Positions 25,339 through 29,943 of a DNA stretch of 64,000 nucleotides are shown piece after piece. Within the stretch, counting starts at the first letter, position 1. Each line of letters begins with the position of its first letter. A model generated the notes under the pieces. That model made no database searches, was not told where the DNA came from, and saw only the letters and a list, made by a program, of their open reading frames with translations. Made by a program: the position numbers and the translations under genes. Origin of the DNA: Dethiosulfovibrio peptidovorans DSM 11002. Its GTDB lineage: Bacteria > Synergistota > Synergistia > Synergistales > Dethiosulfovibrionaceae. The stretch lies in the NCBI RefSeq assembly GCF_000172975.1, contig NZ_ABTR02000001.1, positions 684,001 to 748,000 of the forward strand. Direction: 5' to 3'.

Positions 25339-25611
25339 ATGTCTCAGAACGAAAAAGACAAAAAAGAAGAGAACAAAAAGAAGGTCTTCGAAGAGGTGGC
25401 AGGAGCCACCAAGTACTGTCCAGTCACCTTCCAGGCGGACATAAGAGAGGCCGAAGAGAACGAGCTGGTAAGACAGGCGGAGGAAAAGCTGTTCCTCCAC
25501 AACATAGAGGTGGCGGACAAACTTCACAATATCTCGCTGGATCTATCCCTGGACGATCTGATGGGCGACGATACCTCGGAGGAAGAAAAAGACGAAAAGG
25601 AGGAGGCCTAG
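25339..25611 (+). CDS. Small acidic/charged cytoplasmic protein, unknown
   Basis: This 90-residue protein is not recognised. Both ends are Lys/Glu-rich (SQNEKDKKEENKKK and DDTSEEEKDEKEEA); the centre, GATKYCPVTFQADIREAEENE onward, is probably helical, with LFLHNIEVADKLHNISLDLS. It has one Cys and no membrane segment. The start is uncertain: ATG 25339 has GGAG almost against it, while a run of seven G's lies 8-14 bases upstream. A TTGACC/TATAGG pair at 25282-25308 has a short 15-base spacer. It is divergent from the AsmA-like gene, and its stop overlaps that of dapF by four bases. Confidence 0.6.
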   Translation: MSQNEKDKKEENKKKVFEEVAGATKYCPVTFQADIREAEENELVRQAEEKLFLHNIEVADKLHNISLDLSLDDLMGDDTSEEEKDEKEEA

Positions 25612-26420
25612 GCCTCCTCCTCTATTGTCCCTTTGGCGACGACGACCGTCTCGCCTCCCAGCACTATATCGCAGAGATCCTCCCTGAAGTTGGCCGTCAC
25701 TATGTTGACCCCTCCGGGGTTGTACACCGTTATGGGCGATTCCAGGTCAAGTCGTCGGACCGCCACCACCGCAGAGGCGCAGGAACCGGTACCGCAGGAA
25801 TCGGTCAGGTCCTCCACCCCTCTCTCGTAGGTCCACACCTTAAGAGACCGCCGGTCCACGGGGCCGACGAAGTTCACGTTGGTCCCCTCGGGAAAAAGCC
25901 CCCGATCCTCCCGGAGAGTTCTGCCCCATCGGGTCAGGTCCTCTCGATCGACCTTGTCCGGGTCTTCCAGATAGATCACAAGGTGAGGCACTCCTACGAT
26001 CAGGAAATCCGCCTCCACCTCTCCTCCAGCCATAGGCACCTTTCGACCGAACCATCCCTTTCCCAGATCGACCTCGCCCATATCCAGGTTGACGAAGCTG
26101 CCCTCGACTCTGGCCTTCATTATCCCCGCGATCGTCTCGAAAGACATCTCGAAAGGGGCTATCCCTCTCTCGAAGGCGTAGCGGGCTATACAGCGGGCGC
26201 CGTTGCCGCACATCTCGCCCTCCGAACCGTCCGAGTTGAACACCCTCATCCTAAAATCGCTGTTATCCGACGGCTCAACCACCAAGACCCCGTCGGCTCC
26301 TATGGATCTCCTTCTACGACAGACCCGTCTGGTCAGGTCCACCAGCTGTCCGTAGGCCATGCCGTCCCTGTCGATCACCACGAAATCGTTCCCGTTGCCG
26401 TTCATCTTCCAGAAATTCAA
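25608..26420 (-). CDS. dapF: Diaminopimelate epimerase
   Basis: DapF converts LL- to meso-diaminopimelate, the substrate of LysA and the cross-linking residue of peptidoglycan. The 270-residue protein has the family start NFWKMNGNGNDFVVID and the two active-site cysteines, in GEMCGNGARCIARYA and DSCGTGSCASAVV, with GTNVNFV between. The start is probably the TTG at 26420, 8 bases after GGAGG, giving the typical 'M-F-KM-G-GNDF' beginning; a GTG at 26429 sits on the ribosome site. It lies downstream of the NhaC-type carrier but behind a terminator, so it may also have its own promoter. Confidence 0.95.
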   Translation of the reverse strand: MNFWKMNGNGNDFVVIDRDGMAYGQLVDLTRRVCRRRRSIGADGVLVVEPSDNSDFRMRVFNSDGSEGEMCGNGARCIARYAFERGIAPFEMSFETIAGIMKARVEGSFVNLDMGEVDLGKGWFGRKVPMAGGEVEADFLIVGVPHLVIYLEDPDKVDREDLTRWGRTLREDRGLFPEGTNVNFVGPVDRRSLKVWTYERGVEDLTDSCGTGSCASAVVAVRRLDLESPITVYNPGGVNIVTANFREDLCDIVLGGETVVVAKGTIEEEA

Positions 26421-26448
26421 CGGGATCACCTCCCTACCGTAAATAGAA

Positions 26449-26487: not shown

Positions 26488-28170
26488 TCAATCGGCAGAA
26501 CCGGTCGACACCGATCGGGCGAAAGCCTGCTCCGGACGGTAATCCTCCACGGGACTGGATATCACGTGGAAGGACACCAGAGCCACCGTGACGGCCAGTA
26601 GGAGACACAGAGGGGCGCCCAGCCCCATGGCGACTCCCACATAACCGGCACCGGCCCCAACCGCCGCCAATATGGCGTAAGGCGCCTGGGTATTGACGTG
26701 ATCCATGTGGTCCGCCCCGCTGAACATGGAGGACATTATCGTCGTATCCGATATGGGGCTGCAGTGGTCGCCCCACACGGCCCCGGCGAAGACCGCCCCT
26801 ATGGTGGGGACCATGTGAGTCATGGGATCCACCCCTCCGTTGACCGAAACCGACGCCACCAGGGGCACCACGATAGGCATCAATATGCCCATGGTTCCGT
26901 AGGAGGTTCCGGTACAGAAGGAGATGACCGCACCGACGAAGAAGGTCAGTAGAGGTATCCAACCTGGGCTGAGGATATCTCCCGCCACGGATACTATGTA
27001 TCCCGCCGTTCCCACCGACTTTATGGCCGAGCCTATTCCCCAGGCGAAGATCAGTATGAGTGACCCCACGAAGATGGACTGGGCTCCCTTCATGAAGCCC
27101 CTGAACATGCTGCTGAGAGGAGCCAACCCCTGGAGAGAGTAGAGAACTATGGTCATGAAGGTCCCTCCGAAGGCTCCGTAGACCAGAGCCTTGGAACTAC
27201 TGCCCTCTCCGATGGCCTCGGCCAGCCCCACGTTGGGCCATCCTCCGGTGATCACCAGCATGGAGAAGATAGTCCCTATAAGGAAAAACAGGGGAAGCAC
27301 GAAGTTTATCACCCTCCTGGGAGTCTCGTCCGCAGGGGACAGGTCGGGGTCGGCGTCGGCGGAATTCAGAGGCTGAGCGCCCTCCCTCAGAAGCTTTCCG
27401 GTCTTTCTTGCCCGCCTCTCCGCCGTCAGCATGGGTCCGAAATCCCTGCCGGAGAGCACCACGTAGGTCAGCAAGGCCAGTGCCACCACATTGTAGATCA
27501 CGAAAGGGATGGATTTCAGATAGGTCACGTAGGCCGACGCCTCTATACCAAGCTCGTTGAACTGCATACCTATCTGACCCACCATGTAGGCCACCCAGGA
27601 GGAGATCCCGGCTATACAGGCAATGGGAGCCGCAGTGCTGTCCACTATGTAGGAGAGCTTCTCCTTGGACACTCTGTAGCGATCGGACACAGGGGCCATC
27701 GTCGTCCCCACCACGGCGGTGTTGACGTAGTCCTCGAAGAAGATGACGAACCCGGACAGTTCGGTGAAGAACATGGCACGTCTGCTGCTGGAGATCTTCT
27801 TGGAGAGCCAGCGCACCGCCGCGTCCACCCCTCCTCCGACCTGCATGACCCCGACCAGGCCTCCCATGGTGAGACAGGTAAGGACTATCCTGGCCCCCCA
27901 GGGATCGCCCAAACCGTTCCAGAGCGACTCGACCGCGTTGCCGAAGCCCACCACCGGATTCCATCCGGCCAACATGGTTCCGGCCACCCAGGAACCTACG
28001 AATAGGGCGGGAATTACCTCCTTTGTAACCACGCACAGCCCTATGGCTATAATGGGAGGGAGAAGGGACAGCACGCCGAAGTCGGGAACGACGCCGTCGG
28101 CGGCGAAAGCGCACCGGGCCCATGCAAAAGACAGGACCAGGGCGGAAGAAAAACGGTAGATCGATCTCAT
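26488..28170 (-). CDS. NhaC-family carrier, possible lysine transporter (LysW-like)
   Basis: This 560-residue inner-membrane protein has 10-12 hydrophobic segments and NhaC-family sequence (ALFVGSWVAGTMLAGWNPV, YVNTAVVGTTMAPVSDRY, AGAVWGDHCSPISDTTIMSS near the end). The first 24 residues look like a cleavable signal or first helix. The family is usually named Na+/H+ antiporter. However, the gene follows lysA by 28 bases behind a T-box leader, and comparative work on lysine regulation has proposed NhaC-like proteins (LysW) as lysine carriers, so lysine or another cationic amino acid is a plausible substrate here. Sequence alone cannot decide. The ATG follows CAGGAGG. Confidence 0.85.
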   Translation of the reverse strand: MRSIYRFSSALVLSFAWARCAFAADGVVPDFGVLSLLPPIIAIGLCVVTKEVIPALFVGSWVAGTMLAGWNPVVGFGNAVESLWNGLGDPWGARIVLTCLTMGGLVGVMQVGGGVDAAVRWLSKKISSSRRAMFFTELSGFVIFFEDYVNTAVVGTTMAPVSDRYRVSKEKLSYIVDSTAAPIACIAGISSWVAYMVGQIGMQFNELGIEASAYVTYLKSIPFVIYNVVALALLTYVVLSGRDFGPMLTAERRARKTGKLLREGAQPLNSADADPDLSPADETPRRVINFVLPLFFLIGTIFSMLVITGGWPNVGLAEAIGEGSSSKALVYGAFGGTFMTIVLYSLQGLAPLSSMFRGFMKGAQSIFVGSLILIFAWGIGSAIKSVGTAGYIVSVAGDILSPGWIPLLTFFVGAVISFCTGTSYGTMGILMPIVVPLVASVSVNGGVDPMTHMVPTIGAVFAGAVWGDHCSPISDTTIMSSMFSGADHMDHVNTQAPYAILAAVGAGAGYVGVAMGLGAPLCLLLAVTVALVSFHVISSPVEDYRPEQAFARSVSTGSAD

Positions 28171-28198: not shown

Positions 28199-29479
28199 TC
28201 AAAGCAAATCCTCCGGAACCGATTCGCCCTTTATCAGATCGTCAAAGGACTGACGCTCAACGATGCACCGCGCCTCGCCGTCTTTGACCAGGACCACCGC
28301 CGGGCGTCTGAGCCTGTTGTATCCGCTCGCCATGGAAAAGTTATAGGCTCCGGTGTCGAAGACCGCCACGACGTCGCCCCTTTCGGGAAGAGGCAGCTCG
28401 GCATCCTTTATCAGGATATCGCCGGACTCGCAGCACCTACCTGCCACCGTCACCACCGAATCGGCCGGATCGTCCAACCTGTTCGCCAGAACACATCGAT
28501 ACTCGGCCTGATACAGGGAGGGCCTGGGGTTGTCCGCCATTCCCCCGTCGACGCTGACGTAGGTCCTTATTCCCGGTATCTCCTTGACCGTTCCGACCCT
28601 GTACAGGGTGATCCCAGACGGACCGGCTATCCATCTGCCCGGCTCTATCACCAACCTGGGCCTTGCCATCCCCCTCTCGGAACATATCCTTTCGGCGGTC
28701 TCCACTATGCAGCCCAGAAAGAAGTCCAGATCCACCTCTCTCTGTCCTTTACCGTAGGGTATGCCTATGCCGCCTCCGATGTTGAGCTCTTTCGTCTCGA
28801 AGCCGTTCTCCTCTCTGAGGGTTTTCATAAGATCTCCCAGAACCTCCAGGGCCTCCAGATAGGCCCTGTTCTCCATCAGCTGGGAACCTACGTGGAAATG
28901 GAACCCCAGAAGCTTAACGTAGGGGGCCTTCGTAGCCGTATCGACGCAGTCCCTCAGTCCCTCCCCCAGAAGGGGCATCCCGAACTTGCAGTCCGTGTGG
29001 GCCGTCTGGATGTAGCGATGGGTATCGCCGCTGACCCCGGGAGCCAGTCGGAACAGCACGGAGACCTCCGTCTTCCTTTCCTCGGCCATACTGGCCAAAA
29101 GATCCAGCTCGTCCCGGTTGTCCACCACGAAACGTCCCACTCCGACGTCCATGGCCATGGTAAGGTCCTCGGCGGTCTTGTTGTTGCCGTGAAAATAGGC
29201 CCGCTCCATGGGGAAACCCACGCTAACCGCCGTATGGATCTCGCCGGAGGAGACCACGTCCAACCCCAGCCCCTCGGACTTCACCAGGGCGCACATGGCC
29301 CTGGGCAGAAAGGCCTTACCTGCGTAGAGGACCTCCACGTCTTCGTACCTCTCGGAAAAGGCCCTCTTGACCGCCCTCATCCTCCGCCTTAGCTCCGTCT
29401 CGGACATCACGTAAAGGGGCGTGCCGAACCTCTCGGCCAACTCGGTCACGTCGCACCCGTCGAAAACCATACCGCTCAT
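28199..29479 (-). CDS. lysA: Diaminopimelate decarboxylase
   Basis: LysA decarboxylates meso-diaminopimelate to lysine, using PLP, in the cytoplasm. The 426-residue fold-III enzyme shows the PLP lysine in VLYAGKAFLPRAM, the phosphate-binding GGGIGIPYGKGQ, VIEPGRWIAGPSG, GRCCESGDIL (the active-site Cys of the second subunit) and FDTGAYNFSMASGYN. The ATG at 29479 has GAGGTGG upstream; a GTG at 29491 is in frame but lies inside that region. It is the first gene behind a T-box leader with two antiterminator modules, so synthesis should rise when the cognate tRNA is uncharged. Confidence 0.96.
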   Translation of the reverse strand: MSGMVFDGCDVTELAERFGTPLYVMSETELRRRMRAVKRAFSERYEDVEVLYAGKAFLPRAMCALVKSEGLGLDVVSSGEIHTAVSVGFPMERAYFHGNNKTAEDLTMAMDVGVGRFVVDNRDELDLLASMAEERKTEVSVLFRLAPGVSGDTHRYIQTAHTDCKFGMPLLGEGLRDCVDTATKAPYVKLLGFHFHVGSQLMENRAYLEALEVLGDLMKTLREENGFETKELNIGGGIGIPYGKGQREVDLDFFLGCIVETAERICSERGMARPRLVIEPGRWIAGPSGITLYRVGTVKEIPGIRTYVSVDGGMADNPRPSLYQAEYRCVLANRLDDPADSVVTVAGRCCESGDILIKDAELPLPERGDVVAVFDTGAYNFSMASGYNRLRRPAVVLVKDGEARCIVERQSFDDLIKGESVPEDLL

Positions 29480-29530
29480 AACCCCCACCACCTCGCATCA
29501 TCTCTCTGATAAGATAAAATCCATCGAAAC

Positions 29531-29570
29531 AAAAAAACGAAGACCCATCCCATTCAGGGACGAGCCTTCG
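29531..29570 (-). terminator. T-box terminator 2
   Basis: The stem CGAAGGCTCGTCCC pairs with GGGATGGGTCTTCG (14 pairs including G-T) and is followed by TTTTTTT on the minus strand, about 50 bases before the lysA start. Its 5' arm overlaps the antiterminator 2 partner. Confidence 0.92.
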
Positions 29571-29579
29571 TAAAAGACA

Positions 29580-29603
29580 CGCGGTACCACCCTGCTTGGA
29601 CGT
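29580..29603 (-). repeat. T-box/antiterminator motif, module 2 (24-base direct repeat copy)
   Basis: Identical to module 1 over 24 bases. It is preceded by a sequence that can fold with it (TGCTTGG...CCAAGCA, 29596-29621), which may hide the second T-box until it is needed. Again AGGG and GCG can pair with CGTCCCT downstream. Confidence 0.92.
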
Positions 29604-29636
29604 CTACGTCCCAAGCATAGCACCACCGAAAGCATA

Positions 29637-29672
29637 ACAAAAAGGCCCGCCCCTACTGTAGGGACGGGCCTT
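29637..29672 (-). terminator. T-box terminator 1
   Basis: The stem AAGGCCCGTCCCTAC pairs with GTAGGGGCGGGCCTT and is followed by TTTGTT on the minus strand. Its 5' arm contains the CGTCCCT needed for antiterminator 1, so the two structures exclude each other. Confidence 0.9.
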
Positions 29673-29679
29673 GAATACC

Positions 29680-29703
29680 CGCGGTACCACCCTGCTTGGA
29701 CGT
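29680..29703 (-). repeat. T-box/antiterminator motif, module 1 (24-base direct repeat copy)
   Basis: The minus strand reads ACGTCCAAGCAGGGTGGTAC then CGCG. UGG of GGGUGGUACC is the tRNA acceptor-end contact. AGGG pairs with CCCT and GCG with CGT of the downstream CGTCCCT. The same 24 bases recur 100 bases further on. Confidence 0.93.
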
Positions 29704-29915
29704 GTAAACGCCCCGCTCGGACCCTTTGACGGAGGTCAACCGGGAAACGTACTACGGCCTAAAGGCCTTTCCGTTCCGGCTCGCCGGGCCTTATCCCAAA
29801 AGACAGCGTCCAAAGCCCCTTCCAGCCGACGGAGGCTTCTCTCTGGTCGTACGCGTTCAGTCCTATGGACTTCCGGTTCATCGCCTTTAGCCATATTGAA
29901 AATAACTTGAGCCGT

Positions 29916-29943
29916 ATTATACATCTACCAGACGACCTGTCAA
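29916..29943 (-). promoter_or_regulatory. Consensus promoter of the T-box-lysA unit
   Basis: TTGACA (29938-29943) and TATAAT (29916-29921) are both perfect, with a 16-base spacer, on the minus strand. The -35 box contains the TGA stop codon of the upstream M20 peptidase gene. Confidence 0.85.

Follow-up and report, generated by a model that had tools for sequence, protein, structure and literature searches.

How can a leader RNA that carries one tRNA-docking domain make use of two complete antiterminator/terminator switches? The question is raised by a lysine T-box leader of Dethiosulfovibrio (Synergistota), which lies on the minus strand (29943-29531) upstream of lysA in the stretch of 64,000 nucleotides analysed here (the window). 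In known T-boxes Stem I decodes the identity of the tRNA while the discriminator domain senses its charging, and one decision is made as the polymerase passes (PMC7583486). An earlier note on this DNA had read the leader as one Stem I followed by two complete switches. Our analysis confirms this architecture, with one match to the T-box covariance model RF00230 and with a pairing partner and a terminator in each module.

The lysA leader and its two modules

The promoter of the leader and the genes of the presumed operon are arranged as follows:

29916-29943, minus strand: promoter TTGACA-N16-TATAAT, sigma-70-type, 12/12 consensus positions
28199-29491, minus strand: lysA, diaminopimelate decarboxylase (TIGR01048, E=8.3e-131)
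26488-28170, minus strand: Na+/H+ antiporter-family transporter (PF03553, E=6.5e-56), downstream of lysA in the presumed operon
25608-26429, minus strand: dapF, diaminopimelate epimerase (TIGR00652, E=3.3e-69), further downstream in the presumed operon

The -35 box TTGACA (29943-29938), which shares bases with the stop codon of the M20 peptidase gene lying upstream, is separated by 16 nt from the -10 box TATAAT (29921-29916). The promoter that had previously been called perfect thus agrees with the consensus in all 12 positions but has a spacer of 16 and not 17 nt; shuffled sequences contain 0.2 consensus promoter sites on average. The 16-nt spacing recurs in each of the 18 lysA/asd leaders from the family that includes the genera Dethiosulfovibrio and Pyramidobacter, which we take to be the Dethiosulfovibrionaceae of the Synergistota, and the dapA leaders have 17-18 nt. 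Translation of lysA starts at GTG 29491 or at the in-frame ATG 29479. Within the leader the following elements are discerned:

29779-29892, minus strand: Stem I, the single tRNA-docking domain (RF00230 alignment and aligned orthologues)
29790-29792, minus strand: favoured specifier codon AAG (Lys), followed by the purine G29789 (alignment with family and single-module leaders)
29726-29778, minus strand: Stem II with S-turn motif AGUA, and IIA/B region (CUCCGUCAA) (Rfam alignment)
29698-29713, minus strand: Stem III of module 1 (GGGCGU UUAC ACGUCC), pairing probability of the 3' arm 0.94-1.00 in 24/24 leaders
29660-29693, minus strand: antiterminator 1, with AGGG 29693-29690, bulge UGGUACC 29689-29683, GCG 29682-29680 and partner CGUCCCU 29666-29660
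29638-29672, minus strand: terminator 1 with U-run, hairpin 29672-29642 of 14 bp (-26.9 kcal/mol, z -5.7)
29594-29616, minus strand: local hairpin (GCUUGGGACGUAGACGUCCAAGC) that precedes T-box 2 and takes the position of Stem III, without conservation across the family
29556-29593, minus strand: antiterminator 2, with AGGG 29593-29590, bulge UGGUACC 29589-29583, GCG 29582-29580 and partner CGUCCCU 29562-29556
29531-29571, minus strand: terminator 2 with U-run, hairpin 29571-29537 of 15 bp (-25.8 kcal/mol, z -8.4)

A scan with RF00230, which the earlier note had proposed, gives a single match at 29890-29657 (75.3 bits, E=1.5e-16, model positions 1-219) that spans Stem I, Stem II/IIA-B, Stem III and module 1 and stops before module 2. 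This whole-model match falls below the curated cut-off of 93 bits, and the Rfam scan of the 64-kb window at the gathering threshold returns no match, the T-box surfacing only below the cut-off; in the phylum, matches above the cut-off are found in only 49/188 genomes. Stem I contains the K-turn GAUGAA (29882-29877), the distal AGAGA / GGCUGGAAG motifs and the closing GAGC (29782-29779). In the lysine leaders of the family its specifier loop (29795-29784 and 29876-29870 on the minus strand of the window) leaves only some two nucleotides unpaired on the 5' side, and the AGUA/GAA element that is usual there is missing, which may help to explain the low score.

Downstream of this platform the 24-base motif that had been noticed twice at a distance of exactly 100 bases, each copy with a CGTCCCT partner and a T-run terminator, is indeed found on the minus strand. 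T-box 1 (29693-29680) and T-box 2 (29593-29580) are exactly 100 nt apart, and the identical 24-base repeat sits within a 33-nt repeat of 91% identity with the same spacing of exactly 100. As befits a T-box, the antiterminator and the intrinsic terminator are predicted to be mutually exclusive in modules 1 and 2, and in both modules the terminator is more stable than the antiterminator (-11.7 and -10.5 kcal/mol for antiterminators 1 and 2). A scan for terminator-like sites yields three, the third on the opposite strand, as compared to 0.7 in shuffled sequences.

Between the modules there is neither a Stem I nor a Stem II. U-run 1 is followed at about 20-50 nt by T-box 2 and already at about 20 nt by the hairpin preceding it, and because of this short distance a second Stem I can be excluded, including the degenerate one that the earlier note had named as an observation that would speak against its reading. 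The leader is thus partially tandem, i.e. one Stem I (one RF00230 match) is followed by two modules, and not fully tandem with a Stem I for each module. Two further pairings were considered and set aside. Pairing of T-box 1 with T-box 2 through the palindrome GGUACC occurs in some predicted folds only and is absent from others, including that of the window leader. Pairing of an arm of the spacer with T-box 1, which would evict the tRNA end, is conspicuous in the window leader (0.89 versus 0.57, with 1/99 shuffles reaching this value) but weak in the family and in 71 leaders from elsewhere (Fisher p ~0.03-0.04), and is not claimed.

Specifier and tRNA identity

We favour reading the specifier strand of the window leader (UAAGGCCCGG) as AAG-G and hence as addressing tRNA-Lys, on the grounds of alignment, of the purine following the codon, of the regulated genes and of the discriminator base. 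AAGG is invariant in 24/24 family leaders, and 13 lysA leaders with a single module from other Synergistota have AAA plus a purine in the matching strand; the Phe, Leu and Arg leaders that were checked likewise obey the rule that a purine follows the codon. AAG agrees with the regulated genes lysA, dapA and asd and with the presence of tRNA-Lys(CUU), for which the genome has two genes. Both modules have U as the last base of UGGN, in agreement with A73 of tRNA-Lys: tRNA-Lys(CUU) and tRNA-Lys(UUU) end in A73-CCA, so that the UGGU bulge of either module is complementary to ACCA, whereas tRNA-Arg(CCU) ends in G73. The alternative specifier AGG (Arg), obtained by a strict count off the 4-bp helix, was rejected on the same four lines of evidence. 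The tRNA-Lys which the earlier note had chosen for its check is thus the one to which the specifier (29792-29790) corresponds. As a control for the base-73 rule, the third T-box of the genome (2499257-2499441 of the contig), a single-module leader with the specifier ACC (Thr) before thrC (TIGR00260), has a UGGA bulge that matches the U73-CCA of the three tRNA-Thr genes examined.

The two-module leaders of Synergistota all have AAG and the single-module lysA leaders all have AAA. This split by module number amounts to one evolutionary contrast; extra stringency is conceivable, because tRNA-Lys(UUU) can also read AAG by wobble. AAG together with extra modules is not a general rule, as Phe leaders with UUC carry several modules too.

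Conservation and age of the second module

Two modules, spaced by 91-116 nt, are present in 24/24 lysine leaders of the family (13 genomes, two genera), before lysA in both genera, before dapA in Dethiosulfovibrio and before asd in Pyramidobacter. The window's own genome has a second such leader (1349881-1350240 of the contig), with two T-boxes 106 nt apart, before dapA-dapB; genome G114, which represents a third genus of the family, has no T-box. Across the phylum the strict two-module pattern is found in 12/188 genomes, all within the family, and genome G119 joined the two-module set via a single-motif search. Other Synergistota families have, in at least 13 genomes, an orthologous T-box with one module before lysA. 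All second modules of the lysA leaders fall into a single clade that spans both genera (local support 0.985, of moderate weight given the short sequences), and the duplication therefore predates the split of the genera, having arisen in, or just before, their ancestor.

Core identity is 0.934 among these second modules as compared to 0.912 among the first. The 14-nt T-box 2 is identical between the window leader and four divergent orthologues, whereas the inter-module spacer is 0.32-0.44 identical; the sequence of terminator 2 differs almost wholly between the genera, and every leader retains a strong hairpin and a U-run. In 24/24 leaders module 2 has kept the bulge UGGUACC, which is unpaired, together with a G·U pair where helix A2 begins at its base. 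This conservation of the T-box is partly ascertained, as the loci were found with the search string GGTGGNACCGC, but it extends to positions not fixed by that string, namely the N of UGGN, the CAA upstream and the U in CGUCCC. The G·U pair has been described as a sieve against aminoacyl-tRNA (PMC7583486). The eighth pair varies in the second modules (U·G, G·U or C-G, and U·U in Dethiosulfovibrio lysA). Since the UGGU bulge and the G·U wobble are retained throughout, module 2, as judged from sequence, is very probably functional and not decayed.

This conservation weakens most of the readings that compete with serial checking. It makes it highly improbable that module 2 is a non-functional remnant, either of a recent module duplication or of a full tandem T-box that has lost its second Stem I. 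Relatives outside the family do have a single module, and module number ranges from 2 to 4 in related Bacillales transporter leaders; however, the second module is kept in every leader of two genera, as one clade and at the core identity given above, the spacer is far more variable than the module core, and a spacing of 91-116 nt leaves no room for remnants of Stem I or Stem II. The decayed tandem riboswitch envisaged by the earlier note thus gives way to an old and maintained duplication of a unit. Its proviso that relatives with one module would point to a recent duplication without function applies insofar as such relatives exist outside the family, but the duplication is not recent and very probably not functionless.

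It is also unlikely, if somewhat less so, that module 2 acts mainly as a second stop which lowers the leak, its T-box no longer contacting tRNA and a constant fraction of polymerases passing. The terminator 2 of Pyramidobacter is very strong (-31 to -43 kcal/mol versus -20 to -24 kcal/mol for terminator 1), and Stem III of module 2 is unconserved, both of which would suit such a role. Yet a mere stop does not need the UGGUACC bulge, which is unpaired in the antiterminator, dispensable for the terminator and nevertheless invariant in 24/24 second modules, nor does it need the equally invariant G·U wobble; moreover, a constitutively strong terminator 2 would silence lysA even under starvation. 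A point against two serial checkpoints is that in three dapA leaders, those of the window's species and of two relatives, the U-run of terminator 1 is interrupted (TTGTCTTTAGG), so that the two stops are not always equally needed.

The same two elements of T-box 2 would be left without a reason if the tRNA stayed on T-box 1 and T-box 1 traded its own CGUCCCU for that of module 2, thereby holding terminator 2 open. We regard this as very unlikely even though the CGUCCCU strands are identical in both modules and terminator 1 can, to judge from the sequence, form inside the resulting loop, which would have to be very long.

Stem III is part of the discriminator domain in solved T-boxes. In module 1 its substitutions preserve pairing, as for instance GGGCGC/GCGUCC in genome G109. 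At the corresponding position of module 2, by contrast, mean pairing in the 24 leaders is 0.55 versus 0.48 with shuffled 5' flanks, and the view of module 2 as a full copy including Stem III was dropped, as conservation lends it no support. The hairpin found there in the window had been placed by the earlier note at 29596-29621 and was thought to hide T-box 2, but it occupies 29616-29594, ends right before AGGG, spares both AGGG and UGGU and is not conserved in its pairing. Without a conserved Stem III, module 2 may test charging less strictly. This also bears on the proposal that a second tRNA-Lys binds to module 2 alone, in the absence of Stem I. Module 2 does retain the full acceptor-end contact site; nevertheless we think such binding very unlikely, as four acceptor pairs confer no amino acid specificity beyond base 73, a conserved Stem III is missing, and Stem I has been described as the obligate identity-decoding domain (PMC7583486).

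Related leaders and a proposed mechanism

T-boxes with duplicated terminator-antiterminator elements were reportedly described by Vitreschak et al. in 2008. 'Partially tandem T-boxes' are listed among the known types in a review of 2020, which gives their mode of action as unknown (PMC7583486). The lysA leader belongs to this known class, in a phylum for which our literature search found no report of a partially tandem T-box. A shared Stem I outside Firmicutes, which the earlier note had considered to be notable, is less exceptional than supposed, since the layout also occurs in Chloroflexota and Sumerlaeota besides many Bacillota. A scan of the genomes of 84,980 species for the two-module pattern gave 79 stretches, from which 71 leaders were left after matches without a terminator or Stem I marks had been dropped (61 with two T-boxes, seven with three and three with four; 59 from Bacillota, five from Chloroflexota, four from Synergistota, two from Sumerlaeota and one from another phylum). 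The pattern matches L055, L067, L082, L094 and L105 lack terminators or Stem I marks and were rejected as chance or coding repeats. An Rfam scan of eight multi-module loci found one Stem I in each, including the four-module Lysinibacillus leader L091 (152.5 bits). The genes behind multi-module leaders include those for DAHP synthase, branched-chain-type binding proteins and sodium-dependent transporters as well as serC, ilvD, trpE and lysA.

With the single-module lysA T-boxes of other Synergistota (RF00230) the window leader shares the Stem I K-turn and AGAGA/GNUG motifs, the Stem II AGUA S-turn, Stem III, the UGGN bulge, the CGUCCC partner and the U-run terminator; it differs in its second module 100 nt downstream, in having AAG instead of AAA and in lacking the AGUA/GAA element. 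Like the partially tandem T-boxes already named (PMC7583486), it combines one specifier domain with several antiterminator/terminator elements, and it is distinguished by its lysine specificity, by its occurrence in Synergistota and by the persistence of the type across a genus split in three lysine-pathway leaders. Fully tandem T-boxes, as in the thrS, trp and ilv leaders of Bacillota (PMC12452182), likewise place serial terminators in the path for one amino acid, with a pseudo-cooperative response to be expected, but each unit has its own Stem I, whereas Stem I is shared in the window leader. A similar layout is that of the Phe T-box leaders of sodium-dependent (NSS) transporters in Lysinibacillus, Paenibacillus and Priestia (L091, L100, L107, L040, L072, L074), which have one Stem I and units about 88 nt apart but differ from the window leader in their three to four units and in the specifier UUC.

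Some of these leaders show peculiarities of their own. The Lysinibacillus Phe leaders L091 (421-700), L100 and L107 have four T-box units 88-89 nt apart, the fourth of L091 being without a clear partner and terminator, and two or three units are seen in their relatives from Paenibacillus, Priestia and Bacillus. In the serC leaders L065, L073, L103, L108 and L109 (Phascolarctobacterium, Veillonellaceae) the fourth base of UGGN is C in module 1 and U in module 2, and module 2 would therefore pair with G73 of tRNA-Ser by wobble only. In Alicyclobacillus fastidiosus (L038) a complete T-box is followed by a partially tandem one before the DAHP synthase gene, with two more T-boxes nearby on the opposite strand. 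Near lysA in a Dethiosulfovibrio MAG (L083, 2686-2839, minus strand) Rfam matches the uncharacterised TwoAYGGAY RNA with 47.3 bits, above the gathering score.

How, then, would one Stem I serve two modules? We propose, with a probability of roughly 0.6, that the lysA leader acts as a partially tandem T-box riboswitch which responds to lysine at the level of transcription, and in which one Stem I/Stem II platform carries two serial checkpoints that are queried through tRNA docked on the one Stem I. Among the options raised by the earlier note, serial checking and tighter shut-off are thus best supported and the decayed tandem is not. According to this proposal tRNA-Lys would dock on Stem I and, if uncharged, pair through its 3' ACCA with the UGGU of module 1, allowing RNA polymerase to pass terminator 1; about 100 nt further on, module 2 would repeat the charging test. 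Module 1, irrelevant once the polymerase is past, could refold into terminator 1 and release the acceptor end, whereupon the released end of the same docked tRNA, or a replacement on the same Stem I, would engage T-box 2. Read-through would then require two successive 'uncharged' verdicts, the default leak would be roughly the two single leaks multiplied, the response would rise more steeply with the uncharged fraction, and a charged tRNA exchanging in between the modules could still stop transcription. We infer the steps in which module 1 lets go and the same tRNA is passed on, as opposed to the use of two tRNAs or an independent module 2. More tentative than serial checking as such, and in our estimate somewhat short of an even chance, is therefore the stricter form of the proposal, in which one tRNA on one Stem I is handed from antiterminator 1 to antiterminator 2 during elongation, so that a single ligand is interrogated twice and the module count, which ranges from 2 to 4 in nature, sets the number of checks.

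If true, such a hand-off would be a transcriptional counterpart of kinetic proofreading. The Synergistota provide, within one phylum, a comparative set of orthologous lysA leaders, single-module in 13 genomes and two-module in 13, and a second natural series is formed by the Phe-transporter leaders of Bacillales, whose modules number two, three or four. These series would allow a direct test of what the added modules do, be it to multiply shut-off, to make the response sharper or to proofread the charging of tRNA, and likewise of whether a single docked ligand is able to run several expression platforms one after another.
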